Below are positions 3,522 through 23,437 of a stretch of DNA of 23,695 nucleotides, one piece after another. The position numbers were made by a program, and so were the translations under genes. How positions within the stretch are numbered: position 1 is the first letter of the stretch; every line of letters begins with the position of its first letter. The notes beneath the pieces are model-generated. The model did not search any database and had not been told where the DNA came from. It saw only the letters and a program-made list of their open reading frames with translations. Source of the stretch: a virus; the IMG/VR virus record IMGVR_UViG_3300036770_003991, positions 1 through 23,695 of that record. One strand, written 5' to 3'.

Positions 3522-3922
3522 ATCTATCCCTAGGTAAATTAATAGATAGGCTTATTGGTTGTGTGTATACCCCTATATAGGAAGAAGAACACTTTAACCC
3601 GGCCGGGTTGGGTAAGGGTTTATCTATGTCTTCAGTAACCTAACGTAGTGTAGGTACGCCCATAAAGGGATCTACGTTAAATAAAAAAAGAACTGATAGA
3701 TATAACTATCGTACAACCGGCAAATGTGGGGGGAAATGTGTCGATTTGGACGGTGATCGATTTAATGACCCTATTAGTCCAAATTACAACGATGATATAT
3801 ACAACGAAAGTTGCGGGGGATTTTGGGGGTCTATTAAGTGTTCTTATTCCCTAGAGATATAGACATCTAATCCGCCAGGGTTTAGGTACCTATACTGCTA
3901 CCTATACTGCTCCCTATATAGG
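3482..3922. repeat. Three copies of the palindrome CCTATATAGG
   Basis: Copies at 3482-3491, 3572-3581 and 3913-3922. The third is preceded by a direct repeat of CCTATACTGCT. A perfect AACCCGGCCGGGTT palindrome (3596-3609) lies just after the second copy. They could be protein-binding sites or hairpin arms. They occur only in the gene-free stretch. Confidence 0.6.
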
Positions 3923-3983
3923 TCGAGCATAAAGGTAACAAGAGATAAGGGATTGAGTAAGGGAATAGATCAGTCATAGGAAC

Positions 3984-4030
3984 TTAACGTTAAGACCGCA
4001 TACTCCACCTGAACCCATTCTTAACGTTAA
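3984..4030 (-). promoter_or_regulatory. Orphan leftward promoter module
   Basis: Reading leftward: TTAACG (complement of 4025-4030), a 19-bp spacer, GAGTAT (complement of 4000-4005), then a second palindrome at 3984-3993. The two palindromes lie 37 bp apart. The plan matches the modules upstream of genes to the right, but no gene follows; transcription would enter the gene-free region. Confidence 0.5.
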
Positions 4031-4155
4031 AAACGAACCAGTATTAGCATAACGTTACCCATAAAGGTAATTAGAATTAATAGATTGGATAAATGATGAG
4101 AAAACGGATTAGGAAATACATTAAACTTTTTGAATTCTTAACGTTAAAAATAAAC

Positions 4156-4190
4156 GGGCGTGTCATTTCACCGATCAATCGGTCACGCCC
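4156..4190 (-). terminator. GGGCGT/ACGCCC hairpin
   Basis: GGGCGTG at 4156-4162 pairs with CACGCCC at 4184-4190, with an inner ACCGAT/ATCGGT stem. On the minus strand it is followed, after a short gap, by TTTTTAACGTTAA. It is the first member of the covarying hairpin series. Confidence 0.55.
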
Positions 4191-4303
4191 GCCGGTTCTT
4201 AACGTTAAGTTCTGACTCGGGTTGTTTCTTAACGTTAACTTCTTCTCCCCTGGCTTTTAACGTTAAGAAACTCGACCGAAAAAAAATTTAACGGTAGACC
4301 CTG

Positions 4304-4333
4304 GCCGGTGAGGGTCACTCGACCCTCACCGGC
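4304..4333 (-). terminator. 13-bp hairpin after the gene at 4341-4640
   Basis: GCCGGTGAGGGTC pairs perfectly with GACCCTCACCGGC around the tetraloop ACTC. It starts 7 nt after the stop codon. On the minus strand a run of eight T residues follows about 15 nt later, so it may act as a terminator or as an RNA-stabilising 3' hairpin. Confidence 0.65.
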
Positions 4334-4340
4334 ACACCGG

Positions 4341-4640
4341 TCACTTCAGGCGAATCTGCGGAACGCCGTCGGGCGAGAAGATGATGGCGAAGGAGGTGTG
4401 CCCCGCCGCGCGCATGGCGACCCGCAGGGATGCGGACACGCGCGCCTTCTCCGTCCGGTAGTTGGCCGCGGTCGGGTCCAACTTCTGCGAGGGGATGCGG
4501 ATGGCGCGACCCGGCGTGAGGGTCCGCAGTCCGTCCACCAGAGCCGGGTCCACGTTGGACTTCCGTCCACGCCTGACCGCCTGAATCTCGTCCTCAGGGA
4601 TCTCCTCGAAGTCCCATCCGTGAGTCGTCTTTCCTGCCAT
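4341..4640 (-). CDS. Hypothetical basic protein, 99 aa, paralogue of the gene at 5629-5928
   Basis: GGAG sits 6 nt before the ATG. The product shares about two thirds of its residues with the 99-residue protein two genes away, with no length change. Conserved blocks are AVRRGRKSNVDP, TPGRAIRIP, KARVSASLRxAMRAAGHTSF and GVPQIRLK at the C-terminus. The RRGRKS patch and basic helix hint at nucleic-acid binding, but I recognise no named domain. The gene is GC-rich, unlike the AT-rich genes at either end of the window. It forms its own transcription unit with an upstream palindrome module and a 3' hairpin. Confidence 0.8.
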   Translation of the reverse strand: MAGKTTHGWDFEEIPEDEIQAVRRGRKSNVDPALVDGLRTLTPGRAIRIPSQKLDPTAANYRTEKARVSASLRVAMRAAGHTSFAIIFSPDGVPQIRLK

Positions 4641-4831
4641 GTCATTCTCCGTTCTGGACCTACTTCCGTTTCAGTCCCTTAGGTGACATTGGAAACGCTA
4701 TCGCCCATCCCAACATTTCCACCCTATCCGATAGTTGCAAATGCAACCAGGAGGCGGTCGAGTGCGGTCGAGTATGTATCGTTAAGAGCTCATAAAGAGA
4801 TTGGTTAACGTTAAGTCCCATAAAGGCCGGG

Positions 4832-4875
4832 TTAACGTTAAGAATTCATACTCAACTTCATAATCTTAACGTTAA
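4832..4875 (-). promoter_or_regulatory. Palindrome-flanked promoter for the gene at 4341-4640
   Basis: Minus-strand TTAACG (4870-4875), 16-bp spacer, GAGTAT (4848-4853), then a palindrome at the expected start point (4832-4841). The palindromes are 34 bp apart. Further downstream lie two CTTTATG heptamers (4791, 4819) and another palindrome (4805). These elements occupy the 351-bp gap 4641-4991; no gene was found in it. Confidence 0.55.
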
Positions 4876-4884
4876 AAACCGCTC

Positions 4885-4918
4885 GGGTGTAACGTTAAGG
4901 GCTTTTAACGTTACACCC
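4885..4918 (-). terminator. 14-bp GGGTGT hairpin containing palindrome halves
   Basis: GGGTGTAACGTTAA (4885-4898) pairs with TTAACGTTACACCC (4905-4918) around a 6-nt loop. On the minus strand it is followed by GAGCGG and TTTTTAACG, so it could end transcription just before the next promoter. Confidence 0.6.
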
Positions 4919-4951
4919 TCCGATTTTAACGTTAACATATTTTTAAGCGTT

Positions 4952-4983
4952 AAAAAGCCCCGACTGGATGCCGGGGTTTTTAA
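4952..4983 (-). terminator. Terminator after the gene at 4992-5306
   Basis: CCCCG (4958-4962) pairs with CGGGG (4972-4976). T-tracts flank both sides, so it could work in both directions; on the minus strand the tail reads CTTTTTAACG. Confidence 0.6.
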
Positions 4984-4991
4984 CGGTAGGA

Positions 4992-5306
4992 CTATGCCCT
5001 GTATTTACCGAAGTTAATCCGATTATCACAGTACCTGATCGAAACGTTAAGAGTGTCCTCTTCCTCGACCTCGTCGTTCTTAACGACAAAGTGATCGAAG
5101 TAGTCGGAAATGTCACCGGTCACGCAATAGATGAATGCGAGCATGCGCTCGGTATGGGTCAGGTCGGTCAGGTCAAGGTCGGCCGGAGTCCAAACGTTAA
5201 ACTGTTCCCGAATCTCTCTGGACGCCGCACAGCGGGTGCAGAGCACAGCGGGGACGGCCATCCGGAGACCGCAGTTCTGACATGGGGTACGTTCACTCAT
5301 TCGCAT
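4992..5306 (-). CDS. Hypothetical zinc-ribbon protein, 104 aa
   Basis: The N-terminus carries CQNC and CTRC 14 residues apart, a CxxC...CxxC zinc-binding pair. An acidic helical middle (LTDLTHTERMLAFIYCVTG) and a short basic tail follow. Starts at 5306 and 5300 both lack a clear ribosome site. Upstream, TAACCT lies 6 nt before ATG 5306 with TTGTGA 16 bp further up, so a leaderless transcript starting at 5306 is likely. Function is unknown. The gene is separated from its neighbours by palindrome modules. Confidence 0.7.
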   Translation of the reverse strand: MRMSERTPCQNCGLRMAVPAVLCTRCAASREIREQFNVWTPADLDLTDLTHTERMLAFIYCVTGDISDYFDHFVVKNDEVEEEDTLNVSIRYCDNRINFGKYRA

Positions 5307-5391
5307 ACCAGTAGGTTATCAGATTAGGCCAGGATCACAAGCCTTTTTTTCTAATGTTAATTGGTCGAGGTGTAAAGTTTATGGCTAAGGT

Positions 5392-5436
5392 TTAACGTTA
5401 AAAACACATAATAAAGATAGCAACATTTAACGTTAA
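5392..5436 (-). promoter_or_regulatory. Palindrome-flanked promoter for the gene at 4992-5306
   Basis: Minus-strand TTAACG (5431-5436), a 17-bp spacer, TATTAT (5408-5413), and a palindrome at the start point (5392-5401). Spacing between palindromes is exactly 35 bp. The rest of the 322-bp gap 5307-5628 holds a dyad, four more palindromes and a terminator; no gene was found. Confidence 0.65.
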
Positions 5437-5444
5437 AAATCCAC

Positions 5445-5478
5445 GGGCGTAACACTACTTGTTGTTACGGTTACGCCC
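5445..5478 (-). terminator. GGGCGTAAC/GTTACGCCC hairpin
   Basis: A 9-bp stem (5445-5453 with 5470-5478). Minus-strand continuation is GTGGATTTTTAACG. It corresponds to the GGGTGT hairpins in neighbouring modules, with the third base pair from the 5' side changed on both arms. Confidence 0.55.
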
Positions 5479-5584
5479 GCCGTTCTTAACGTTAAGGAAT
5501 GAGTCTTTAACGTTAAGATTCTATCGTCAAAAAAAATTAACGTTAGGAGGTTCTTAACGTTAGGAGTACTCGACCACGAACAAA

Positions 5585-5606
5585 CCCCCGGCCTGTTGGC
5601 CGGGGG
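5585..5606 (-). terminator. Terminator after the gene at 5629-5928
   Basis: CCCCCGGCC pairs with GGCCGGGGG around TGTT (9 bp). On the minus strand the tail is TTTGTT, a moderate T-tract. Confidence 0.65.
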
Positions 5607-5628
5607 CTGTCCGGGGGGGGATGGGGGG

Positions 5629-5928
5629 TCACTTGAGACGGATCTGCGGGACACCCTCCGGGGAGAACACGATCGTGAACGACGTGTGACCGGCCGCACG
5701 CATCGCCGTGCGGAGCGAGGCCGAGACCCGGGCCTTGTCGGTCTTGTAGGTCGGTGCCTTGGGATCGAGAGCCTGCGCCGGGATGCGGATCGCCCGGCCG
5801 GGGGTCATCCCCTTGAGAGCCTCCACAAACGCCGGATCGACGTTGCTCTTGCGCCCCCGGCGCACGGCCGTGATCTCGCTCTCGTCGATCTCTTCGAATG
5901 CCCAGTCGTTGTTCTTGTTCGCTGCCAT
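5629..5928 (-). CDS. Hypothetical basic protein, 99 aa, paralogue of the gene at 4341-4640
   Basis: The ATG at 5928 is preceded by AAAGGGTGA and by a GTGTTGGG/CCCAACAC hairpin in the 5' leader, so the longer open frame to 5973 is not used. Sequence blocks match the paralogue: EEIDESEITAVRRGRKSNVD, TPGRAIRIPAQALDP, KARVSASLRTAMRAAGHTSF, GVPQIRLK. Identity is high across the full length, suggesting fairly recent duplication of a whole cassette or strong constraint. Function is unknown; the basic patch suggests nucleic-acid contact. GC-rich. Confidence 0.8.
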   Translation of the reverse strand: MAANKNNDWAFEEIDESEITAVRRGRKSNVDPAFVEALKGMTPGRAIRIPAQALDPKAPTYKTDKARVSASLRTAMRAAGHTSFTIVFSPEGVPQIRLK

Positions 5929-5951
5929 GTCGGTCACCCTTTCGGTGCTCT

Positions 5952-5973
5952 GTGTTGGGCTTGTTCCCAACAC
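5952..5973 (-). promoter_or_regulatory. 5' leader hairpin
   Basis: GTGTTGGG (5952-5959) pairs with CCCAACAC (5966-5973), loop CTTGTT. It lies about 24 nt before the start codon and just upstream of the ribosome site of the gene at 5629-5928. Confidence 0.5.
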
Positions 5974-6140
5974 CTAGAACGATACCTAATCCGACTGCGT
6001 TTGTGGTGACAGACACGTTACAGGATTATTACGATCTCATTACGGTGATCTGGGTCGAGTTTGCCCCGTAACGTTAACTTCCGGCTATCGTTAATAAAGC
6101 TCATGTCGATTGCCTAACGTTAAGCTCCATAAAGGGCGGG

Positions 6141-6186
6141 CTAACGTTAAAAACATAAACTCAAGCCAGACGAATCTTAACGTTAA
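6141..6186 (-). promoter_or_regulatory. Palindrome-flanked promoter-like module for the gene at 5629-5928
   Basis: Minus-strand TTAACG (6181-6186), a long 20-bp spacer, GTTTAT (6155-6160), and a second palindrome (6141-6150). Palindrome spacing is 36 bp. The wide spacer makes it a weaker promoter candidate. CTTTATG follows at 6128-6134. No gene was found in the 374-bp gap 5929-6302. Confidence 0.45.
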
Positions 6187-6193
6187 AAACCCC

Positions 6194-6229
6194 GGGTGTA
6201 ACGTTAATGGTGTGCTTAACGTTACACCC
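6194..6229 (-). terminator. 14-bp GGGTGT hairpin containing palindrome halves
   Basis: GGGTGTAACGTTAA (6194-6207) pairs with TTAACGTTACACCC (6216-6229), 8-nt loop. On the minus strand it is followed by GGGGTTTTTAACG. Confidence 0.6.
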
Positions 6230-6263
6230 GCATTTTAACGTTAACTTTTGTCTAAGCGTTAAA

Positions 6264-6294
6264 AATCCGGCTCTCGGGGGGTAAGAGCCGGATT
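6264..6294 (-). terminator. Terminator after the gene at 6303-6458
   Basis: AATCCGGCTCT pairs with AGAGCCGGATT (11 bp) 8 nt after the stop codon. On the minus strand it is followed by TTTAACGCTTAGAC. Confidence 0.7.
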
Positions 6295-6302
6295 CTTAAC
6301 GT

Positions 6303-6458
6303 TCAGGCGGGGACGTAACGTCCGTTCTTCTGGATGACGATGGACAGGCCGGTCGTGCCGAACATGTACTTAGCGTTACGGATGAACTCCTCGCAGGACT
6401 CCTTCGTGCCCTGATGTTCGACGTAGTAGCCATTCCAGACGTAATACATCTTCTTCAT
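6303..6458 (-). CDS. Small hypothetical protein, 51 aa
   Basis: ATG 6458 is chosen because the upstream gene stops at 6460-6462 and its last codons contain AAGGAGGTG, a near-perfect ribosome site 9-10 nt before this ATG. A longer frame from 6488 would overlap that gene. The sequence MKKMYYVWNGYYVEH is aromatic, followed by a short helix (TKESCEEFIRNAKYMF) and a beta end. The stop codon is built into TGAACGTTAA, a variant of the regional palindrome. It may act with the HicA-like product upstream, but it does not resemble HicB. Function is unknown. Confidence 0.65.
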   Translation of the reverse strand: MKKMYYVWNGYYVEHQGTKESCEEFIRNAKYMFGTTGLSIVIQKNGRYVPA

Positions 6459-6459
6459 T

Positions 6460-6663
6460 TTAACGTTCACCTCCTTCCCGGTTGTCATGTCGCCGTAGAT
6501 CCCGACGAGTATTCTTTAACGTTCTGAAGTCTGATGGTGTGGAAGAAACGAACACCGGTTGAGAGCCAGGGCGAACTAGTTTGTAGTGACCACCGTTTGT
6601 CTTAACGATAGCCCTGCCGAACTCGGCTGCTAGTTCGGCTATTTCCTTCTCCCATTTCTTCAT
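6460..6663 (-). CDS. HicA-like small RNA-binding or mRNA-interferase-fold protein
   Basis: 67 residues. KTNGGHYKLVRP is the HicA/YcfA-type signature, with His26 where the catalytic His of HicA toxins lies. It is followed by VFVSSTPSDFRTLKNTRRDLRR, typical of phage-borne HicA-like proteins. HicA enzymes adopt a dsRBD-like fold and cut mRNA. No HicB antitoxin is adjacent, so this may be a standalone phage effector or an inactive relative. TAGGAT lies 6 nt before the ATG with TTGACT 16 bp further up, suggesting a leaderless start. Its stop codon TAA falls inside AACGTTAA and lies one base before the next start. Confidence 0.7.
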   Translation of the reverse strand: MKKWEKEIAELAAEFGRAIVKTNGGHYKLVRPGSQPVFVSSTPSDFRTLKNTRRDLRRHDNREGGER

Positions 6664-6749
6664 ACCGGAATCCTAGCAGAACGGCATACATAGTCAACAC
6701 TTTTTTTGTAATGTTAAATTGGTAATCCATAAAGTGTATTAAGTGAATA

Positions 6750-6794
6750 GTAACGTTAGAATCTCATAATAAACTTGTGCTTTCTTATCGTTAA
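6750..6794 (-). promoter_or_regulatory. Palindrome-flanked promoter for the two genes at 6303-6663
   Basis: Minus-strand TTAACG (6789-6794), 17-bp spacer, TATTAT (6766-6771), palindrome at the start point (6750-6759). Centre spacing is exactly 35 bp, although the upstream palindrome is imperfect (TTATCGTTAA). CTTTATG follows at 6728-6734. Confidence 0.65.
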
Positions 6795-6802
6795 AAATCT
6801 GC

Positions 6803-6837
6803 GGGCGTAACGTTAAGCGTCGTTTAACGTTACGCCC
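6803..6837 (-). terminator. 14-bp GGGCGT hairpin containing palindrome halves
   Basis: GGGCGTAACGTTAA (6803-6816) pairs with TTAACGTTACGCCC (6824-6837), 7-nt loop. Minus-strand continuation is GCAGATTTTTAACG. Confidence 0.6.
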
Positions 6838-6875
6838 GCCAGCTTTTAACGTTAAGAATATTTCAAGCGTTAAAA

Positions 6876-6900
6876 AACCCGGGGTCCACCTCCCCGGGTT
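6876..6900 (-). terminator. Terminator after the gene at 6909-7010
   Basis: AACCCGGGG pairs with CCCCGGGTT (9 bp, 7-nt loop) and is followed on the minus strand by TTTTAACGC. It lies 8 nt after the stop codon. Confidence 0.75.
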
Positions 6901-6908
6901 CTTAACGT

Positions 6909-7010
6909 TCAGTCCCCCTTCCCTCTGAGTACCAGACCGATGATGCCCCATGTACAGAGCACCACGATCCAGAAGTTAACGGTGAACTCCCATCCCAACG
7001 GGTGGTTCAT
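6909..7010 (-). CDS. 33-residue predicted single-pass membrane microprotein
   Basis: Read directly from the minus strand: ATG at 7010, stop TGA at 6909-6911. GGAG sits 5 nt before the ATG. The sequence is MNHPLGWEF, then a hydrophobic stretch TVNFWIVVLCTWGIIGLVL of about 20 residues, then RGKGD. The positive C-terminal end suggests that the tail stays in the cytoplasm. Only 19 nt separate it from the upstream stop, so the two genes form one operon. The stop is followed by the variant palindrome TGAACGTTAA and a strong terminator, as for neighbouring genes, which supports reality. It could disturb or sense the host membrane; the family is unknown. Confidence 0.7.
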   Translation of the reverse strand: MNHPLGWEFTVNFWIVVLCTWGIIGLVLRGKGD

Positions 7011-7029
7011 GGCTTCTCCTTTTTAACGG

Positions 7030-7299
7030 TCAGATGTTCCACTCGTAGTCAAGGGTCATGAAGGCATGCGCCGTGACCCATTCGGGCTTGTTGTACAGGT
7101 CGCACAGACCGCTAGCGTTAACAAGCCCGGCGGTAGCAACAAGATGACGGAGAACCCGGAACGTGTCGTTCAGAGGCTCGGCGTTGGTGCAGGCCGAATC
7201 GGCGCACTCCTCGTAGTAGACCGAATCGATTGCCTCGGCCAGTTCGTGGAGTCTGTCCACGATGTTGTTAGCCAGTTCGGAAATTTCGCGGTTCGTCAT
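7030..7299 (-). CDS. Hypothetical acidic helical protein, 89 aa
   Basis: ATG 7299 follows AAAGGA by 7 nt and a GGGATT/AATCCC leader hairpin; the open frame to 7359 has no ribosome site. The sequence is helical and acidic (SELANNIVDRLHELAEAIDSVYYEE). Four cysteines (residues 34, 39, 68 and one nearby) are not arranged in a known zinc motif. The stop is followed by the palindrome variant ACCGTTAAAA, which also forms the leader of the next small gene. Function is unknown. Confidence 0.7.
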   Translation of the reverse strand: MTNREISELANNIVDRLHELAEAIDSVYYEECADSACTNAEPLNDTFRVLRHLVATAGLVNASGLCDLYNKPEWVTAHAFMTLDYEWNI

Positions 7300-7317
7300 T
7301 GCGGTTCCTTTCGGGTC

Positions 7318-7335
7318 GGGATTGCTTGGAATCCC
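7318..7335 (-). promoter_or_regulatory. 5' leader hairpin
   Basis: GGGATT (7318-7323) pairs with AATCCC (7330-7335), loop GCTTGG, about 19 nt before the start at 7299. A TAGGCT element (-10-like) lies just upstream, with TTGCTT 18 bp before it. Confidence 0.45.
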
Positions 7336-7419
7336 TAGCCTAGTTCCATTGGTAAGCAAAAAGCAACTCTATCAATCTACCGTTAGGATTGATTTTCCCC
7401 ATAAAGGTAACGACGACAA

Positions 7420-7464
7420 TTAACGTTAAGATCACATAATAAACTTGAGGATAGTTAACGTTAA
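7420..7464 (-). promoter_or_regulatory. Palindrome-flanked promoter for the two genes at 6909-7299
   Basis: Minus-strand TTAACG (7459-7464), 17-bp spacer, TATTAT (7436-7441), palindrome at the start point (7420-7429). Spacing is 35 bp. CTTTATG follows at 7400-7406. No gene was found in the 308-bp gap 7300-7607. Confidence 0.65.
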
Positions 7465-7472
7465 AAACTCGC

Positions 7473-7507
7473 GGGTGCAATGTCATGGTATTCTGACGGA
7501 AGCACCC
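7473..7507 (-). terminator. GGGTGC/GCACCC hairpin
   Basis: 6-bp stem (7473-7478 with 7502-7507) followed on the minus strand by GCGAGTTTTTAACG. It occupies the same place in the module as the GGGTGT and GGGCGT hairpins, with changed but still paired bases. Confidence 0.5.
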
Positions 7508-7561
7508 GCCTTCTTAACGTTAGGATGTTCTTAACGTTAGAATATTTTTAACGCAAAGAAA

Positions 7562-7583
7562 GCTCCGGCCTTTCGACCGGAGC
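7562..7583 (-). terminator. Terminator after the gene at 7608-7970
   Basis: GCTCCGG pairs with CCGGAGC, followed on the minus strand by TTTCTTTGCG. Confidence 0.65.
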
Positions 7584-7607
7584 CTCTCTGACGTTCTTAA
7601 CGGTAGA

Positions 7608-7970
7608 TTACTTCTTGTAACGCTCGAACGTGCAGTCCGGGTCGAGGATAGCGGCGATGCCCCGGGCCGCGCACTGGTAGCCGTCCTCCAGAGAATCCCA
7701 CCGGCACTCAACGTGCAATTCGATGCCTGCATCGCCGTACTCCGATTCCTGTACCACACCGGCAGGCAGGGTGCCGATCACGATCACTTCCGGCCTGCGG
7801 AATTGATTCATAACGAACGTGTTCCCGATGACATGGTCGGCGTCCAACGTCAGATTGTGGGTCACGATGATGGACGTCCAGACCTTTTCATTCTTCTCGA
7901 TGAAATCCGGTGCCAGTCTGTCACCGTTCTCCAGATTCGTGACCTTGACGTACTCTGTTCCGTTCTTCAC
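7608..7970 (-). CDS. Hypothetical protein, about 120 aa, probable GTG start
   Basis: GTG 7970 lies 8 nt after GGAGGGAG and just downstream of a CCGGTGGG/CCCACCGG leader hairpin, the same plan as neighbouring genes. ATGs further up (8033, 8024) have no ribosome site, and the second lies by the hairpin. The product is mixed alpha/beta (WTSIIVTHNLTLDADHVIG, RRPEVIVIGTLPAG) with an acidic C-terminal half. Two cysteines near the end are not in a zinc motif. No recognised family. The stop is followed by TACCGTTAAG and then the terminator. Confidence 0.65.
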   Translation of the reverse strand: MKNGTEYVKVTNLENGDRLAPDFIEKNEKVWTSIIVTHNLTLDADHVIGNTFVMNQFRRPEVIVIGTLPAGVVQESEYGDAGIELHVECRWDSLEDGYQCAARGIAAILDPDCTFERYKK

Positions 7971-7992
7971 GTTGGGTTCTCCCTCCGTCCTG

Positions 7993-8013
7993 CCGGTGGG
8001 CCATTCCCACCGG
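7993..8013 (-). promoter_or_regulatory. 5' leader hairpin
   Basis: CCGGTGGG (7993-8000) pairs with CCCACCGG (8006-8013), loop CCATT, immediately upstream of the ribosome site for GTG 7970. Confidence 0.5.
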
Positions 8014-8104
8014 GCTTCGCCCATTTTATGCATGGTCGAGTCCAATACGCAATACTTTTCTTCTATCGTTAAATTGGTAATTCATAAAGTGTATTTGCTG
8101 AAGG

Positions 8105-8149
8105 GTAACGTTAAGATCCCATAATCAATTTCAGTATGGTTAACGTTAA
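8105..8149 (-). promoter_or_regulatory. Palindrome-flanked promoter for the gene at 7608-7970
   Basis: Minus-strand TTAACG (8144-8149), 17-bp spacer, GATTAT (8121-8126), palindrome at the start point (8105-8114). Spacing is 35 bp. CTTTATG follows at 8083-8089. No gene was found in the 325-bp gap 7971-8295. Confidence 0.65.
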
Positions 8150-8157
8150 AAACTCAC

Positions 8158-8192
8158 GGGTGCAAGGCGCTGGTATTCGCACCGAAGCACCC
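8158..8192 (-). terminator. GGGTGC/GCACCC hairpin
   Basis: 6-bp outer stem (8158-8163 with 8187-8192), 23-nt loop, followed on the minus strand by GTGAGTTTTTAACG. Confidence 0.5.
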
Positions 8193-8248
8193 GCCATTTT
8201 TTAACGTTACGTGTTTTTTAACGTTAGTATGTTTTTAACGTAAGAAAA

Positions 8249-8270
8249 ACCCCGGCCAGATGGCCGGGGT
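8249..8270 (-). terminator. Terminator after the gene at 8296-8676
   Basis: ACCCCGGCC pairs with GGCCGGGGT around AGAT (9 bp), followed on the minus strand by TTTTCTTACG. Confidence 0.75.
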
Positions 8271-8295
8271 CTTTCCGTTTCTTAACGGTAGGTGG

Positions 8296-8676
8296 TTACA
8301 AGAACAAGGTTTCGAAACAGTCTTGGCACAGACTCTTCTCTTCGTTGATGGTTGAGCAGATTACATCAGCAGTATTGGTGCACGAATCACAGGGTCCATC
8401 TGCCCGACTCGGCTTCCCCGAATACGGATCATCCGCCCAAACTGCAGGCGCACATGCCCAACCTTGTGGAGAAATCCACTCTCCACAAAGAATCCCCCCG
8501 TCGTTGTAGGGGGGGATGAACTTGAAGAAATCGACGGGGAGACGGCCTTCGCAGATCCGGCCGAAGATTTCCACCTTGAAGTGCACCTCGCCGTTGTTAA
8601 CGGTAAGGATCTGGACGGGGAAATCGGTAATCCAATCTTGGATTCCGATGGCATTCGGGATGATTGAATCGGACAT
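8296..8676 (-). CDS. Hypothetical protein with C-terminal zinc-binding cysteines, 126 aa
   Basis: ATG 8676 is 8 nt after AAGGAG, so the open frame to 8724 is not needed. The N-terminal half is beta-rich (VQILTVNNGEVHFKVEIFG). The C-terminal 35 residues hold CDSC, a further Cys, and CQDC, a CxxC...CxxC ribbon able to bind zinc, before a hydrophobic end (FETLFL). Phage proteins with such a tail often recruit nucleic acid or host proteins, but this cannot be specified here. An independent cassette in the palindrome array. Confidence 0.75.
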   Translation of the reverse strand: MSDSIIPNAIGIQDWITDFPVQILTVNNGEVHFKVEIFGRICEGRLPVDFFKFIPPYNDGGILCGEWISPQGWACAPAVWADDPYSGKPSRADGPCDSCTNTADVICSTINEEKSLCQDCFETLFL

Positions 8677-8795
8677 ATCGAACACTCCTTGGTAGGAAAC
8701 ATTGGGACAGTAGTAGTAAACCAAATCTCGAAAGCAATTGCAACCTATTTCTTGTAACGTTAAATTAAAATCCCATAAAGTGTATCTGACTGAAG

Positions 8796-8842
8796 TTAAC
8801 GTTAAAGCCCCATAATAAACATCGTAAATAATTTAACGTTAA
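8796..8842 (-). promoter_or_regulatory. Palindrome-flanked promoter for the gene at 8296-8676
   Basis: Minus-strand TTAACG (8837-8842), 19-bp spacer, TATTAT (8812-8817), palindrome (8796-8805). Spacing is 37 bp. CTTTATG follows at 8774-8780. The neighbouring GGGCGT arm near 8850 has no partner, so this module is incomplete. No gene was found in the 302-bp gap 8677-8978. Confidence 0.55.
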
Positions 8843-8927
8843 AAACGTGGGCGTAGCTTATCTTATTTCTTAACGTTAAAAACGTTGGTGGATGATCCTG
8901 GCTCGACTGGCACCGGTACATGACAAA

Positions 8928-8955
8928 GGGAGCCGATGCCGTAGCACCGGCTCCC
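8928..8955 (-). terminator. Terminator after the gene at 8979-9347
   Basis: GGGAGCCG (8928-8935) pairs with CGGCTCCC (8948-8955), extended by ACAA/TTGT across one unpaired base; the minus-strand tail is TTTGTCAT. Confidence 0.65.
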
Positions 8956-8978
8956 TTGTGGGAGGGTACCGCTCCGGC

Positions 8979-9347
8979 TCAGCCGGTGCGGACGATGTAG
9001 AAGGTATCCCCGATGCGGCACCAATCGAGCCGCACCTTCGCTCCGGTGAGAGCCAGAGCCGACATGAGCCGACGCTGCACCTTCTGGTCGGGTCGGCTCT
9101 CACCTTCCACCAGAGCGTCCCACTCTGCGGTGAACGCTTCCACCGCTCCGCTCTTCACCGCCTCCCGACGCTCTGCGAGCGGAGCCGGAGCGACCTTCAT
9201 CCGGGTCGCGCTCAGAGCGAGAGCGGTGAGCAAGACGTTCGCCTTGTCCACCTTGTACCGATTCGAAGCGGCACCGCTCTCCTTCCACTCTGTGCAGAGA
9301 GCCAGAGCCTGCTCCTGCTCTTCCTTGCTGACCTTGTGAGCCTTCAT
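8979..9347 (-). CDS. Hypothetical protein, 122 aa, paralogue of the gene at 10384-10782
   Basis: AAAGGGGAG lies 3-4 nt before the ATG. Shared blocks with the paralogue are SGAASNR, ALALS/IALTL, LAERREAVKSG, SRPDQKVQRRLMSALAL, RLDW and TFYIVRT near the C-terminus. The fold is probably mostly helical with a short beta end. The family is not recognised. It is GC-rich. The related copy lies on the other side of the DnaA-box cluster in a different regulatory setting. A -10-like TAGGCT with TTGGAA 18 bp upstream precedes the leader hairpin at 9360-9383. Confidence 0.75.
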   Translation of the reverse strand: MKAHKVSKEEQEQALALCTEWKESGAASNRYKVDKANVLLTALALSATRMKVAPAPLAERREAVKSGAVEAFTAEWDALVEGESRPDQKVQRRLMSALALTGAKVRLDWCRIGDTFYIVRTG

Positions 9348-9359
9348 GGCTCCCCTTTC

Positions 9360-9383
9360 TGTTGGCTCGCTTGTTCACCAACA
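9360..9383 (-). promoter_or_regulatory. 5' leader hairpin
   Basis: TGTTGG (9360-9365) pairs with CCAACA (9378-9383). Its loop shares AACAAGC with the leader hairpin at 5952-5973, so the two leaders are related. Confidence 0.45.
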
Positions 9384-9581
9384 AGGTCAGCCTATCTAGT
9401 CAGATTGGCCAATTCCAAACTCTGCTCGATTGCAAATGCAACCAGAAAACCTACCCATAATCCAAACATGGTTTCATAATGCTGTTGCATAATGGTATTG
9501 GTTTCACAACACCTGTACCATAACAACGTTCGATAACATTACATTTGCTCAATTTCTAACGGTGTTTCTTAACATAGTTGC

Positions 9582-9621
9582 GGGTGTGGGCGCAATTTCG
9601 AAAGAGCGTCGCCCAACACCC
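9582..9621 (-). terminator. GGGTGT hairpin of a decayed cassette module
   Basis: GGGTGT (9582-9587) pairs with ACACCC (9616-9621), continued by GGGC/GCCC across one unpaired A. Same outer pairs as the hairpins at 4885 and 6194, but with no T-tract. Confidence 0.4.
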
Positions 9622-9628
9622 GGCAAAG

Positions 9629-9901
9629 TTTTCCACAGGGCTGTGGATAACCCTGTGGACAAAAAGTTTTCCACAGATTTCCTGGGGTTTTCCACAGGTT
9701 GTACACAGTGTTTTCCACAGGTTGTGGACAATTCTGGGGGTAACGTTGTGGAAAACCCTGTGGATATCACCCATAATCTGTGGATTGTGGATAAGCCTGT
9801 GGACAACCCCTGTGGATTTGTGGATAACTCGGGTTTTCCACAGGTGTGGACAAACATGTGGATATGCCGTTGTCCACAGCCTGTGGATATGTTGTGGATA
9901 C
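9629..9901. other. oriC-like cluster of DnaA boxes, putative replication origin
   Basis: By eye, 20 nonamers with the core TCCACA/TGTGGA plus one TTGTACACA lie in 273 bp. Perfect TTATCCACA (as TGTGGATAA): 9642, 9786, 9819. TTGTCCACA, the actinobacterial form: 9654, 9723, 9798, 9845, 9870. TTTTCCACA: 9629, 9667, 9688, 9711, 9747, 9834. Others (ATATCCACA and similar): 9759, 9779, 9811, 9857, 9882, 9893. Fourteen point one way and seven the other, with irregular spacing. Known biology: bacterial oriC regions carry such clusters, and Streptomyces oriC has about 19 boxes. Inference: a phage origin fired by host DnaA, or a DnaA-titration site. Confidence 0.8.
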
Positions 9902-9939
9902 CCTGGCCTACTCGACCGGCCCGACCTTGGCCGGTACAT

Positions 9940-9981
9940 GGCCGTAGCCCCGGGGCCGTAGCCCCGGGGCCGTAGCCCCGG
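9940..9981. repeat. Three tandem 14-bp GC-rich repeats
   Basis: GGCCGTAGCCCCGG is repeated exactly three times (9940, 9954, 9968), then partly. Each junction forms a CCCCGGGG palindrome. It lies between the DnaA boxes and the stop codon of the next leftward gene, so it could fold as a 3' hairpin or belong to the origin. Confidence 0.8.
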
Positions 9982-9992
9982 GGCCGTTCCGG

Positions 9993-10280
9993 TCATTCGG
10001 GGAGATCCACCCCGGTGCGGTAGTTGGTACAGGCGGGGCACCAGCAGTGCCAACCGCCCAAGCACTCCCGGCTCTCCCGGGCCATGTCCTCCCGGTACAT
10101 GGCGACCGTGAGTCCGACGACCGTGCCCATCCCGGGCAGGGCGACGAATGCGAGGACGATAAACGCCCCGACCAACTCGCCCGATGCGATGGTATCCCAT
10201 GCGAGATCCATCCCGATAGCGGCGATGATGATGCCGCAGGCGAGGCCGAAACCGGCCCCGATACGCTGTAGTGTGGACAT
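9993..10280 (-). CDS. Predicted two-pass membrane protein with C-terminal Cys motif, 95 aa
   Basis: ATG 10280 is preceded by AAAGGGGG and a GGGCGCA hairpin; the open frame running to 10739 overlaps another gene and is rejected. There are two hydrophobic segments (about residues 6-27 and 36-60: IGAGFGLACGIIIAAIG and LVGAFIVLAFVALPGMGTVV). A basic tail then ends in CLGGWHCWCPACTNYRTG, with CxC and CxxC spacing that could bind a metal. The composition is very GC-rich. Function is unknown; membrane location is inferred. Confidence 0.7.
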   Translation of the reverse strand: MSTLQRIGAGFGLACGIIIAAIGMDLAWDTIASGELVGAFIVLAFVALPGMGTVVGLTVAMYREDMARESRECLGGWHCWCPACTNYRTGVDLPE

Positions 10281-10301
10281 TGCGTCCCCCTTTCGGGTCA
10301 T

Positions 10302-10320
10302 GGGCGCATTCCGTGCGCCC
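10302..10320 (-). promoter_or_regulatory. 5' leader hairpin GGGCGCA/TGCGCCC
   Basis: 7-bp stem, loop TTCCG, about 20 nt before the start at 10280. The same stem occurs before the next gene (10805-10824). Confidence 0.6.
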
Positions 10321-10351
10321 GGTCGGTATTCGATACTCCCGGGGTGACCCG

Positions 10352-10378
10352 GGTCGGGGGGATCGCACCCCCCCGACC
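10352..10378 (-). terminator. 10-bp GC hairpin after the gene at 10384-10782
   Basis: GGTCGGGGGG (10352-10361) pairs with CCCCCCGACC (10369-10378), 5 nt after the stop codon. No T-tract, so it may be a 3' stabilising hairpin or a factor-dependent end. Confidence 0.5.
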
Positions 10379-10383
10379 GTCGG

Positions 10384-10782
10384 TCACCGTGTCCGGACCA
10401 GCCAGAATGTCCCATCGACGTTGACCCAGTCGAGGCGGATCGCCCGGCCGGTCCGCAGTGCCAGTGCCGACATAAGCCGACGCTGGCACCGTTGGTCCGG
10501 TCGTGAACCGCCCGGGACCAGTCGGTCCCAGTCACCGTCGCGGGCCGTGACTGCCGAACCGCCCGACCGGACCCAGTCTCGCCGGTCGGCCAGTCCGGCC
10601 GGGGCGAGATCCATCCGGTCGGCCAGCGTGAGTGCGATGAGAAACATCGCAACGTTGCCAGCGTCCCGGGCGAACCGGTTCGATGCGGCGCCGCTCCCGG
10701 CGTACTCTGTGACCGCAGTAGCGGCCGCAGTGTACTCATCCCGGGTCGGCTTGGACATACCCTGCGTGAGCAGTGCGTCCAT
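10384..10782 (-). CDS. Hypothetical protein, 132 aa, paralogue of the gene at 8979-9347
   Basis: ATG 10782 is preceded by AAAGGGGGTG and the GGGCGCA leader hairpin; an ATG at 10758 lacks a ribosome site. Shared blocks with the paralogue: SGAASNR, LAPAGLADRRDWVRSG, SRPDQRCQRRLMSALAL, RLDW, TFWLVRT. It is rich in Ala, Arg and Asp with strongly GC-biased codons. Its promoter region lacks the TTAACGTTAA palindrome, so the two copies are probably expressed under different control. Function is unknown. Confidence 0.75.
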   Translation of the reverse strand: MDALLTQGMSKPTRDEYTAAATAVTEYAGSGAASNRFARDAGNVAMFLIALTLADRMDLAPAGLADRRDWVRSGGSAVTARDGDWDRLVPGGSRPDQRCQRRLMSALALRTGRAIRLDWVNVDGTFWLVRTR

Positions 10783-10804
10783 TGGACACCCCCTTTGGGG
10801 TCGT

Positions 10805-10824
10805 GGGCGCATCGCCATGCGCCC
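10805..10824 (-). promoter_or_regulatory. 5' leader hairpin GGGCGCA/TGCGCCC
   Basis: 7-bp stem, loop TCGCCA, same arms as at 10302-10320. TACCCT lies just upstream on the minus strand as a possible -10, which would place the hairpin at the very 5' end of the RNA. Confidence 0.6.
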
Positions 10825-11246
10825 CCAGTAGGGTACCGGGCTACCTAGATCCCGGCCCGATCGGGGGGGCATCGCACCTAGGTGCTCGGTCGCCCCGACC
10901 GGCCTCCGCCGCTATGGCCCGGTGCCCCGGGGCGGCTTCGATGAGTGGAACCGTAATGACCCCATCGCCCAACGTCAACCCCCTATCTCACCCTGTTGGT
11001 GATTGACCCAGGGTAAGACAAGTAAATACAAGGGTCGGAGCCTTCGCATTACCCTCTTCCAATATATATTAAATTTTTTTGCTGTTTTGGGTCGGCGTTT
11101 CCTTAGGATAGTTTTGCTGGAAGTTTGAGGGAATGGAAAAAGCCCGGGGGTTAGCCGGGCTGGGGAAGACTTTGGGAAAAATCTGGGGGGTTAGAGCTGG
11201 TTTTAAGTTTTGTTAGGCTCTACAGAATAGGGAGCTATAGGTTGAG
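10825..11246. other. Gene-free junction between GC-rich and AT-rich regions
   Basis: No credible gene. It holds a GCACCTAGGTGC palindrome (10874-10885). Composition switches near 11030-11060 from GC-rich to AT-rich (ATATATATTAAATTTTTTT). A leftward terminator follows at 11136-11161. This could be a boundary of a terminal repeat or an acquired segment. Confidence 0.5.
11136..11161 (-). terminator. Leftward intrinsic terminator of the thyX operon
   Basis: AGCCCGG (11141-11147) pairs with CCGGGCT (11155-11161), followed on the minus strand by TTTTT. It would end the long leftward transcript after the dCMP deaminase. Confidence 0.75.
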
Positions 11247-11783
11247 TCACAAGATAGACGATATGTGTTGATCGATAATCTGACGGATTTTCCGGTTTTC
11301 ATTTTTCTTCAGCAGAATTGTGTCAATTCTGTTCTGAAGTAGGAAGCTGTATACGTGCTGCTCTTGTGCGTAGGTTTCGTCTGATTGCCCTATAATTCGC
11401 CGTATGCCGCTGTTAACTATCAATTTGGCACATCCATAGCAGGGAGAGCCATTTATAATAAGCGTGGCGTCTTTGCGGGCGTGCGGGTCGGCCCACATGA
11501 TGGCGTTTGCTTCGGCGTGTGTGGCGATGCAGTCGTCATATATGCTGCCCGACGGGGAACCGTTTTTGTATCTCGGACAATATCCTTCGTTACAATGCCC
11601 CATGCCGGGCGGTGACCCGTTGTATCCTTGTGATAACAAACGTTTGTTGTCACCGATGATAACGGCAAAATATTGGCGTTTCGCACATGTTGAAAACGTT
11701 TTGGCAAGATGGTCGCATGACATAAGCCATTTGGCCTCATGAGGCCGGATGCCGTATTTGAAGTCAAGATATTGAAGATTCAT
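11247..11783 (-). CDS. dCMP deaminase (ComEB/deoxycytidylate deaminase family)
   Basis: Converts dCMP to dUMP, the substrate of thymidylate synthase. The 178 residues carry the zinc-dependent deaminase signature: His89-Ala-Glu91 in CIATHAEANAI and Pro114-Cys115-Tyr-Gly-Cys118 in GSPCYGCAKLI. Extra cysteines (64, 69) in the GHCNEGYCP segment match a second metal site seen in many dCMP deaminases. The N-terminus (KWLMSCDHLAKTFSTCAKRQ) is typical of the family. AGGG lies 8 nt before the ATG. It is the last gene of the leftward operon, and together with ThyX at the other end it completes dCMP to dTMP. 10-bp tandem repeats lie just upstream. Confidence 0.92.
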   Translation of the reverse strand: MNLQYLDFKYGIRPHEAKWLMSCDHLAKTFSTCAKRQYFAVIIGDNKRLLSQGYNGSPPGMGHCNEGYCPRYKNGSPSGSIYDDCIATHAEANAIMWADPHARKDATLIINGSPCYGCAKLIVNSGIRRIIGQSDETYAQEQHVYSFLLQNRIDTILLKKNENRKIRQIIDQHISSIL

Positions 11784-15898: not shown

Positions 15899-16196
15899 TA
15901 TCATCTTCTTCGTCCTCCTCATCTTGGTCATACAAGATAATTTGCTGCTCAGCAAAACGTTCCGCAATCTTAGATTGTAGCATTAAAGCAATAAGTTCAT
16001 CGACTCTATCACGGGCTATTTCAATCCCATCCATTAAACAATTTGCTTCATCAATGGAAATAAAGTGATCGTCAGTTGGAGCAACTAGCGTAAAAGCTGG
16101 AGCATAGCCGTCTTCAAAAGGTATTGCTTTAATCAAGATAGATAAGGTAGGAATATCCTCTATCTCTTCATCTCCATCGTAAGGAACAATTCTCAT
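15882..16196 (-). CDS. Hypothetical acidic protein, 104 aa
   Basis: Begins in a TAATG overlap with the thyX stop. The beta-rich first half (LSILIKAIPFEDGYAPAFTL) is followed by helices (SIDEANCLMDGIEIARDRVD) and a very acidic tail (DQDEEDEEDDNGEGD). The family is not recognised. Coupling to thyX suggests it is made at the same time. Confidence 0.7.
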   Translation of the reverse strand: MRIVPYDGDEEIEDIPTLSILIKAIPFEDGYAPAFTLVAPTDDHFISIDEANCLMDGIEIARDRVDELIALMLQSKIAERFAEQQIILYDQDEEDEEDDNGEGD

Positions 16197-16891
16197 TAGA
16201 TCGCTGACCTGCCGTTATTAATAAACGATTCCATTGTTACAGGCACATGAGCATAAATAAGGTTTTCAATTACTTCTGCATACTGTCTAATTTCTTTCTG
16301 TGCGTTTTCATCATTTCTTAACGCAAGAAAGTTAATTACACTACGTAGATTTACCGTCCAGACAAATTCTGTGTACTGACCAACTGGTAGGACTGATCTT
16401 GCAATCTCTTTTGCAATACCAGCCTCAATCATTTCATAATAGTTATTTTCAGCAACGGTGTAAGCTTCTTGAAACTTTTCTGTCACAAAATCGTAAACTG
16501 CTGGATCATCAATCTTCTCAAACGTATAATGACCCGGCTTACCAACTTGCTTACGAATAGACTCATCACTTGGAAAAAAGAAGTCTAATGAATCTGGAAC
16601 ATAGTATCTCATGCTCATCTCATTGAATGAAGACCACCTATGCCTAAACCATTCTCTTGCAACAAAGATTGGGCACTTAATGTAAAACTTAAACAAAACA
16701 TGCTCAAACGGTGTTGCATGGTTATTCTTAAGAAGATAATTAACAAGACCCGCTGCTTTATCATTCATCTCGTCTTGGTATGCAGAAAAACTAACTCTGG
16801 CAGCATTGACAACATCTAAGTCGCTACCCATAACTTCAATCAGAGATACTGCACCTTCGTTTAAAACCTTGACACTGTTTCCGTAGTTCAT
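16196..16891 (-). CDS. thyX: Flavin-dependent thymidylate synthase ThyX
   Basis: Makes dTMP from dUMP using methylene-tetrahydrofolate, FAD and NADPH (EC 2.1.1.148). The 231 residues contain the full ThyX motif RHRxxSxNExSxR at residues 83-95 (RHRWSSFNEMSMR), with the conserved FEH region (residues 62-64) before it and LRSVINFLALR, the C-terminal substrate-binding block, after it. Length is normal for the family. First gene of the leftward operon. No ribosome site precedes the ATG; a divergent intergenic region lies upstream. The dCMP deaminase at the end of the same operon supplies dUMP. Confidence 0.97.
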   Translation of the reverse strand: MNYGNSVKVLNEGAVSLIEVMGSDLDVVNAARVSFSAYQDEMNDKAAGLVNYLLKNNHATPFEHVLFKFYIKCPIFVAREWFRHRWSSFNEMSMRYYVPDSLDFFFPSDESIRKQVGKPGHYTFEKIDDPAVYDFVTEKFQEAYTVAENNYYEMIEAGIAKEIARSVLPVGQYTEFVWTVNLRSVINFLALRNDENAQKEIRQYAEVIENLIYAHVPVTMESFINNGRSAI

Positions 16892-21476: not shown

Positions 21477-21821
21477 ATGAACTCTGATTACGTCAAGAAT
21501 AAGAAACTTTATGTCCCACAACGGGCTTTTGGTGTATGCATCTGGATTATGGCAGATGGTAAGCCCCTCTCTGATGGCGATGGTGTTCTTTGTGCAGAGG
21601 GTATCGTTGGTGACAAGAGTGTTGAAGAACAGGTCCGGAAGGCTGCTCTTTATTGGACCGGTTCTGAGGAAGGATACGCAACTTGGGTTGGCGGGGCTAG
21701 AAAAGTTACTGCATCTGAAAAAGATGACCAAGCAGAGCGTTTGGCCAATGGCTTAATGCCAGATCCTTACGAAGACATTATTGAAGCAGCCGTCAAAAAG
21801 GAACTTAATAGGAGAAAGTAA
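21477..21821 (+). CDS. Hypothetical protein upstream of portal, 114 aa
   Basis: ATG 21477 is preferred over 21441, which lies in the terminator-proximal leader. No ribosome site precedes it, but TATTAT lies 7 nt upstream, so a leaderless transcript is likely. Sequence: FGVCIWIMADGKPLSDGDGVL then ALYWTGSEEGYATWVGGARK, a helical acidic middle and a basic end KKELNRRK. Genes like this stand before the portal in other actinophages; function is unknown. The stop overlaps the portal start (TAATG). Confidence 0.7.
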   Translation: MNSDYVKNKKLYVPQRAFGVCIWIMADGKPLSDGDGVLCAEGIVGDKSVEEQVRKAALYWTGSEEGYATWVGGARKVTASEKDDQAERLANGLMPDPYEDIIEAAVKKELNRRK

Positions 21822-23437
21822 TGAATAAGGGAATGAGTCATATTGACGATGAGGCTGAAGAGATTCTTGTTGATGATGTAAATTATTATCAAACAATCAG
21901 AAAGATTGAAAACAACGATCCTTTCAAGACAGTTAAGTATTCTTCTCTTTCTCCAAGAATGAAAAGAAAGGCTACTCGTCTCTCTAAAAAGTTTGAAGGC
22001 GTAGAGGGAGCCGAAGCCAAGTATATTGATCCAGAAGAACTTGATGGATATTCACTATATGATGTTGTAAGTCCTCCATATGATCTATATACGCTTGCCG
22101 AGTTGTACGATTCAAGTGCAATTCATAATGCAGCAATAAATGCTAGGGTTATGAATACTGTAGGACTTGGGTATCATTTCCCTGAAACCCTTAAGGCGAG
22201 AAGAAGGCTGGAGAAGGCACAGTCTAATCCTGATAGGATGGATCGTGTAAGGAAAGCAATTCAGGACGTTCGTCAGGATTTAGAAACAAAGTTTGAAAAC
22301 TTCAATGAAGAAGAAACTTTTATTGAAACTATCAATAAAGTCTGGCTTGATGCCCTAACAACGGGAAATGGCTATTTAGAAATAGGTCGAACCAATTCAG
22401 GAGAGATCGGCTATATCGGCCATATTCCTTCAGTTCTTATGCGTGTCAGACGCCATCGTGATGGCTATGTCCAGATCGCCAAGAGTAACAAGATTCAAGC
22501 GGTCTTTTTTAGAAACTTTCAGGACACAGAGACAGAAGATCCGATTAACTCAGATCCTAAGCCTAATGAGATAATTCATTTTAAGATTTATTCTCCTAAT
22601 AATTCATATTACGGAATCCCTTCAAGTGTTTCCGCTGCCGCTGCGATTGTTGGTGACAAGTTTGCAAAAGAATACAATATTGACTATTTCGAAAATAAGG
22701 CTATTCCAAGATATGCAATTATTGTTAAGGGTGCTAAGCTAAGTCAAAGATCAAAGCAGGAACTGGTTAATTACTTCCGTCAAGAGGTAAAGGGGCGCAA
22801 TCATGGTACGCTAATCGTCCCACTTCCAGCATCTCTTGGTGGAGACACAGACATTAAGTTTGAAAAGCTTGAGGCTGGTATTCAAGATGCTTCATTTGAC
22901 AAGTATCGCAAATCAAACAGGGATGAGATCCTTGTTGCCAACAGAGTTCCTGCTCCAAAAGTAGGTGTTTATGATAATGCAAACTTGGCGGTTTCAAGGG
23001 ATGCTGATAAGACATTTAAGACTCAAGTAATCGGTCCAGATCAATCTATTATTGAAAAGAAACTTAATAGACTTATTGCCGAGTTTACTGATCTGGTAAG
23101 CATCAAGTTTGATAGGATTGATCTTGTTGATGAAGACATTCAGTCAAGGATTTATGATAGATACCTTCGTACCGAGGTTGTCACACCTAATGAGGTTCGT
23201 AATGAACTTGGTCTACCGGAAAGAACAGACGGCGATGAGCCTCTGCCTTATCCAACAAAGTTAAAGAAAGAGCAGGGCGGTAATGGGCCAGGTGCTCCTA
23301 TAGGCAATAACAATAACGAGTCTGCAGTTCCAAGGAATGCTAGGGCAGACAGCCCCGGAGGTTCATCTGATCCAAGAGAATCTGGTGATCAGGCGGAAAG
23401 AGGGGAAAATCAAGATAATGGAGGAAATAATGATTGA
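21821..23437 (+). CDS. Phage portal protein (PBSX/HK97-like)
   Basis: Forms the dodecameric ring at the capsid vertex through which DNA enters and leaves. 538 residues, GGAG 6 nt before the ATG. Family features are the N-terminal LYTLAELYDSSAIHNAAINA segment, the TGNGYLEIGR strand (181-190), and the characteristic NSYYGIPSSVSAAAAI...YFENKAIPRYAIIVKG block (about 261-304). A helical stem and a C-terminal disordered Gly/Asn/Asp-rich tail (from about 475) follow. Marks the start of the rightward head-gene region. Overlaps the next gene by 8 nt. Confidence 0.93.
   Translation: MNKGMSHIDDEAEEILVDDVNYYQTIRKIENNDPFKTVKYSSLSPRMKRKATRLSKKFEGVEGAEAKYIDPEELDGYSLYDVVSPPYDLYTLAELYDSSAIHNAAINARVMNTVGLGYHFPETLKARRRLEKAQSNPDRMDRVRKAIQDVRQDLETKFENFNEEETFIETINKVWLDALTTGNGYLEIGRTNSGEIGYIGHIPSVLMRVRRHRDGYVQIAKSNKIQAVFFRNFQDTETEDPINSDPKPNEIIHFKIYSPNNSYYGIPSSVSAAAAIVGDKFAKEYNIDYFENKAIPRYAIIVKGAKLSQRSKQELVNYFRQEVKGRNHGTLIVPLPASLGGDTDIKFEKLEAGIQDASFDKYRKSNRDEILVANRVPAPKVGVYDNANLAVSRDADKTFKTQVIGPDQSIIEKKLNRLIAEFTDLVSIKFDRIDLVDEDIQSRIYDRYLRTEVVTPNEVRNELGLPERTDGDEPLPYPTKLKKEQGGNGPGAPIGNNNNESAVPRNARADSPGGSSDPRESGDQAERGENQDNGGNND

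Follow-up and report, generated by a model that had tools for sequence, protein, structure and literature searches.

The oriR of phage P1 uses host DnaA alongside RepA iterons. Bacterial origins of the continuous type span about 250 bp in E. coli and reach about 950 bp in Streptomyces; E. coli and B. subtilis have TTATCCACA as the high-affinity DnaA box, and that of Streptomyces and Mycobacterium is TTGTCCACA (PMC4285127). In phage lambda, DnaA-box-like sites lie downstream of pO, and DnaA protects them in vitro (PMC3985674). For the Streptomyces phages of the Stanwilliamsviridae we found no described replication origin, and no open-access paper that links DnaA boxes to this family or describes the box locus reported here; well over 100 cultured Streptomyces phage records carry related portals. 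Terminal repeats of about 11 kb have been reported for the cluster to which Samisti12 belongs, in a paper that does not mention DnaA (PMC5764925). Here we compare these systems with a dense DnaA-box cluster in an uncultured phage, which is probably a host-DnaA-dependent phage replication origin, or the initiator-binding half of one, grown to the scale of oriC.

The DNA analysed, referred to as the window, is a linear IMG/VR record of 23.7 kb (23,695 nt) that encodes a portal, a class II ribonucleotide reductase with an intein, ThyX, a dCMP deaminase and a glycosyltransferase. The original prediction took it to be an actinophage. Its phage nature is borne out by the portal and by its IMG/VR record, and the assignment to actinophages is supported by kinship with the Stanwilliamsviridae. 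No known phage in the collection searched matched the whole window at the nucleotide level. Judged by the portal (44–50% identity), its closest cultured relatives are Streptomyces phages of this family, and the gene order ThyX(–), glycosyltransferase(+), class II ribonucleotide reductase(+), portal(+) is the same in the window, Wakanda and Samisti12. The window thus appears to come from an uncultured relative of the Stanwilliamsviridae, although a separate but related family is possible because the portal is only 44–50% identical and the window is only a 23.7-kb fragment. Kinship points to an actinobacterium as the probable host. Uncultured relatives are numerous, with 368 portal matches. A first portal scan of genome contigs returned nothing, and an alignment scan returned three binned contigs with conflicting taxonomy. 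The ribonucleotide reductase gene (18387–21368) contains an in-frame intein with a LAGLIDADG domain; the intein appears to be missing from the related loci L203, L205 and L206, because these match residues 1–347 and 698–993 only, at adjacent coordinates.

Table 1. Coordinates of features in the window and of DnaA boxes in cultured phages.
Feature	Genome	Position	Strand	Remarks
Small island gene, 122 aa	Window	8979..9347	–	Other side of cluster; a DNA repeat relates the 8979 gene to 10384–10872
Moderately AT-rich flank, candidate unwinding region	Window	9450..9560	.	64.5% AT, weak evidence
GC-rich hairpin GCGGGTGTGGGCG...CGCCCAACACCCGGC	Window	9578..9625	.	From folding; between AT-rich flank and first box
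DnaA-box cluster	Window	9629..9901	.	20 TCCACA cores, 8 perfect TTRTCCACA, plus TTGTACACA, both orientations
14-bp GC-rich unit GGGGCCGTAGCCCC, three copies	Window	9939..9981	.	Other flank of cluster
Small predicted membrane protein, 95 aa	Window	9993..10280	–	Adjoins cluster; from translation
dCMP deaminase	Window	11247..11783	–	Synteny anchor with L203–L206
ThyX thymidylate synthase	Window	16196..16891	–	Synteny anchor with Stanwilliamsviridae
Portal protein	Window	21821..23437	+	44–50% identical to Loccivirinae portals
Two perfect boxes in gap	Comrade	121979/122182		
Boxes	Faust	123605/123617/123870		
Boxes	Wakanda	119039/119051/119307		
Boxes	DekoNeimoidia	57457/57469/57724		

The original prediction of at least 20 boxes in 273 bp was confirmed by counting, which gave exactly 20 TCCACA/TGTGGA nonamers in the cluster and the additional TTGTACACA at 9699–9707. 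Three of the boxes are TTATCCACA (9642, 9786, 9819) and five are TTGTCCACA (9654, 9723, 9798, 9845, 9870); the others are TTTTCCACA (six), ATATCCACA (three) and one each of GTATCCACA, CAATCCACA and AAATCCACA. This density is far above chance. Against the 20 cores observed in 280 bp, first-order Markov shuffling of the whole window (500 times) never gave more than 4, and shuffling of the local stretch (1000 times) never more than 3. The box search gave 33 matches where 11.6 were expected, a number reached by none of 100 shuffles. As in oriC, the boxes exceed chance in non-coding DNA, lying between small genes. They occur in both orientations, and 11 of the 19 start-to-start spacings are 11–13 bp. 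Within the nonamer, position 1 is T in 14 of the 20 boxes, position 2 is T in 18 of 20 and position 3 is A, G or T, with positions 4–9 invariant by construction of the search. Preferences in the flanking columns are weaker (at most about 0.7 bits), so that the information is concentrated in the 9-mer, a pattern that fits DnaA boxes better than long iterons. When the cluster was compared with plasmids and phages by blastn, short matches at the level of single boxes were all that was returned, and Rfam searches that covered the window and cultured loci gave no RNA match.

The AT-rich stretch named in the original prediction stands out locally, but at just 64.5% AT (9450–9559) it is matched by 11% of the 110-bp windows in this DNA; it is therefore not exceptional, which counts against reading the locus as an origin. 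The GC-rich tandem repeats on the other side are real, with three units at about 9939–9981, but are absent beside the cluster of L205, the related locus described below.

The cluster lies in an island of small genes with several features of its own. Island genes at 4308–10872 have 55–70% GC compared with 36–44% over most of the fragment, and include the paralogue pairs 4341/5629 and 8979/10384. The word TAACGTTA occurs 42 times in a 5.4-kb stretch of the island (3985–8900), in intergenic and some coding DNA, and once elsewhere. Syntenic islands carry other words, ACCTAACA in L204 and AATATTAC/AACATTAC in G015 (L392). A CTTTATG motif on the gene strand is common to the island genes of the window (3600–8800) and L204 (3500–8400), and intergenic GCGGGYG...CRCCCGC hairpins recur in both islands despite the differing word. 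A search with gene 434–1009 as query found no further island relatives. A single phage may be the source of both G003 and G023, which come from the same sample, have complementary ends and share the TAACGTTA word.

According to the original prediction, no such cluster was known from a described actinophage. This has to be qualified, because a smaller version with two to four perfect TTATCCACA boxes is present in cultured Stanwilliamsviridae, at the equivalent map position and in a gap of usually 1.3–1.5 kb. In Comrade, Faust and Wakanda, all Loccivirinae, the gap is non-coding, 1.4–1.5 kb long and near 119–124 kb; DekoNeimoidia of this subfamily likewise has its boxes in a long non-coding stretch (Table 1). 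The usual layout is two TTATCCACA boxes about 12 bp apart and a third about 255 bp further. Small ORFs are annotated inside the stretch in BillNye, and small genes lie close to it in Annadreamy, Limpid and TunaTartare. The locus occurs in Comrade, Gilson, Faust, Wakanda, Annadreamy, BillNye and Samisti12, and in the records examined its boxes are not annotated. In an alignment of 14 phages with a mean column identity of 67%, the longest invariant runs were AAAAGCTCTGT, TGTGGATAA and GTGGATAA, and two of these three (TGTGGATAA and GTGGATAA) are box 9-mers. A 321-bp Comrade probe matched 39 Streptomyces phage records. Among these, two genomes (three records) are 18-kb tectiviruses that match in a side block only; WheeHeim, the tectivirus examined, shares just this neighbouring 43-nt block and has no boxes. 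The block beside the boxes (43–50 nt, AAGTTAC..GACAGTATGTGAGAAAAGCTCTGTACGCC; Comrade L319 122022–122070, WheeHeim L388 1501–1543) adjoins the DNA polymerase gene of this unrelated Streptomyces tectivirus and has no Rfam match.

The locus is also found in the other subfamily. Samisti12 has three TTATCCACA boxes at 122951–122995 in a 1.3-kb gap between convergent gene blocks, and they end about 50 bp before a 10,666-bp direct terminal repeat starting at 123045. The box locus and the packaging end therefore adjoin in this phage (L387, 100000–133710; locus 22952–23046). On a circular map, the boxes always lie left of ThyX, at a distance of about 6 kb in the window compared with about 9 kb for Wakanda and about 11 kb for Samisti12. 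From this shared position we infer that the window cluster descends from the locus of the cultured phages; the sequences themselves are not alignable. Because the box locus lies in a non-coding gap of dozens of cultured relatives, the Stanwilliamsviridae probably start replication via host DnaA. Two observations count against this or fail to add to it. These Streptomyces phages use TTATCCACA, and the high-affinity box listed for Streptomyces is TTGTCCACA (PMC4285127). GC skew in Wakanda shows no switch at the 119-kb box locus and mostly tracks the gene strand.

The replication genes of these phages bear on which initiator is used. Wakanda encodes a DnaB-like helicase, primase, SSB, DnaE polymerase and DnaQ. 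Among uncultured relatives, genes for DnaB and DnaE occur in G002, G015 and G023, and one block of G023 also holds those for a DnaG-type primase, SSB and a RecA/UvsX-like protein. The window ends before the replication genes, and its phage presumably encodes DnaB and DnaE as well. A phage-encoded DnaA was sought and not found: no match to DnaA domains (PF00308, PF08299) was found in the window, its relatives or the cultured phages searched, and controls gave matches. No recognised initiator family was found among the replication-block proteins searched. Ahead of DnaB lie a 101-aa protein and a MerR-like gene, the latter (HTH/MerR-like) upstream of DnaB in both Wakanda and G023; each of the two might act as a loader or initiator of an unrecognised type. 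A gene with a PAPS-reductase domain lies within a phage replication block, beside DnaE (L396, 8148–9077).

We propose that host DnaA would bind the dense boxes and form a filament, that the filament would open nearby DNA beside the array, and that the phage-type DnaB helicase, primase, SSB and DnaE polymerase would load at the opened DNA. The phage would provide the replisome and borrow the initiator. DnaA binding, strand opening and helicase loading would presumably all take place at the window cluster, where, as in L205, the locus would have expanded from the family's two to four boxes to 16–20. That the phage fires replication with host DnaA, one of two explanations in the original prediction, is favoured indirectly by the box locus at the same position in cultured relatives and by a replisome that lacks a recognised initiator, but the other explanation, in which the cluster soaks up DnaA, remains the main rival.

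Close uncultured relatives bear on both explanations. The dCMP deaminase is found at 69–75% identity in four loci (L203–L206). L205, which has about 70–77% DNA identity to the window, carries its own cluster, with 16 cores and 12 strict boxes, at the same place. This cluster is at the contig end, about 1.1–1.3 kb beyond the deaminase, and is flanked as in the window by an inverted repeat (GCGGGTGTG/CACACCCG, similar to the window hairpin) and TTAACGTTAA; a small gene likewise directly adjoins it. The boxes are arranged differently, and therefore it is the cluster that has been kept and not its sequence. The L203 and L206 contigs stop short of the cluster position. L204 (contig G002, 70 kb) has no TTDTCCACA between the deaminase and g14/g434/g1009, orthologues of which lie on both island sides, and TTDTCCACA does not occur on any part of contig G015 (105 kb, portal 72%), in which the island paralogues are present. 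The original prediction had named loss of the cluster from close relatives that replicate normally as evidence against it, and such loss was partly found: the cluster is seen in L205, as is the box locus in the cultured family, and is missing from G002/L204 and G015, which have the same gene island. The cluster is thus patchy, and in this close clade the locus is dispensable or replaceable.

This patchiness suits an optional host-takeover function, in which the cluster would titrate or inactivate host DnaA, as datA does, and block host initiation, with the phage itself replicating in some different way. A number of boxes similar to that of an entire oriC, and larger than at any other of the 197 viral loci listed by box patterns, is in keeping with this, as is a position among small genes of unassigned function near the genome end. 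We nonetheless consider it doubtful, since the two to four boxes of cultured relatives are too few for a strong sink and are conserved in position and spacing. Nor is another replication route evident, because the searches turned up neither a DnaA-like protein nor any other recognised initiator. It is equally doubtful that the cluster is an oriC mimic with two jobs, firing phage replication and, by its copy number, stripping DnaA from the host chromosome so that host replication stops. Overall, conservation of the small version among cultured phages speaks for an origin; the patchiness and extreme size seen here leave room for a sink or for both.

A role in transcription is less likely again. 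DnaA or host factors on the boxes could regulate early small genes, in the way that lambda promoters near ori-lambda respond to DnaA; the sites downstream of pO are a precedent (PMC3985674). The locus does sit amid many small genes, but the Samisti12 gap lies between convergent gene blocks. To our knowledge, 20 boxes in 273 bp is also far above known DnaA-regulated promoters.

It is very unlikely that a phage-encoded protein (an initiator, partition or packaging factor) uses the repeats as its iterons and favours TCCACA by chance. The strong folding of the two-orientation repeats (z –7.2), the closeness of the Samisti12 boxes to the terminal repeat and the HTH/MerR-like gene upstream of DnaB would agree with such a protein, but letters vary at nonamer positions 1–3 only, most of the information is inside the nonamer, and identical TTATCCACA boxes recur in cultured phages of different genera. 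Unlike a P1 oriR-type iteron array, the cluster consists of 9-mer units that face either way at variable spacing, and no initiator family was recognised in the replication blocks searched. Capture of a host chromosomal oriC by misassembly or recombination, suggested by the oriC-like density, can be rejected given phage island genes on both sides, a record without a DnaA gene and an independent contig (L205) arranged alike.

Phage DnaA-box clusters are not unique, because triplets and dense loci recur among the IMG/VR matches listed. At least 120 IMG/VR stretches contain three strict boxes within some 70 bp. Among the matches listed the window cluster is the densest, with 15 strict boxes per 300 bp compared with 12 for the next. 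Of 21 dense viral box loci checked, none had a DnaA C-terminal domain and seven had a DnaB domain, accepted if it passed the cut-off or had E < 0.001. L106, L264 and L086 have 7–11 strict boxes per 300 bp with a DnaB domain about 5 kb away, which suggests another phage group with putative DnaA-box origins.

If the window cluster is a DnaA-dependent origin, these would be tailed phages with a full replisome that outsource the initiator alone. Phage replication would be tied to the host's replication licence, and the presence of an oriC-like array on a phage would be explained. The fixed place of the DnaA-box locus in cultured isolates makes it an origin candidate that can be tested at once.

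The locus can be set against four known systems. Like E. coli datA, which inactivates DnaA, it is a non-coding box cluster that could draw DnaA off oriC, but it is on a phage genome and has many more boxes. P1 oriR and lambda (PMC3985674) are likewise phage replicons with DnaA sites, but these have few DnaA boxes and a dedicated initiator, and none is recognised for the window phage. With bacterial oriC it shares dense DnaA boxes in both orientations, a non-coding stretch and a similar length; it differs in being on a phage genome, without dnaA/dnaN neighbours or a recognised strong unwinding element. Compared with the locus of cultured Stanwilliamsviridae, the window has 20 boxes and not two to four, a mixture of TTATCCACA, TTGTCCACA and TTTTCCACA, and nothing alignable beyond the boxes; both have perfect nonamers in non-coding DNA, left of ThyX near the genome end, within the same core gene order.
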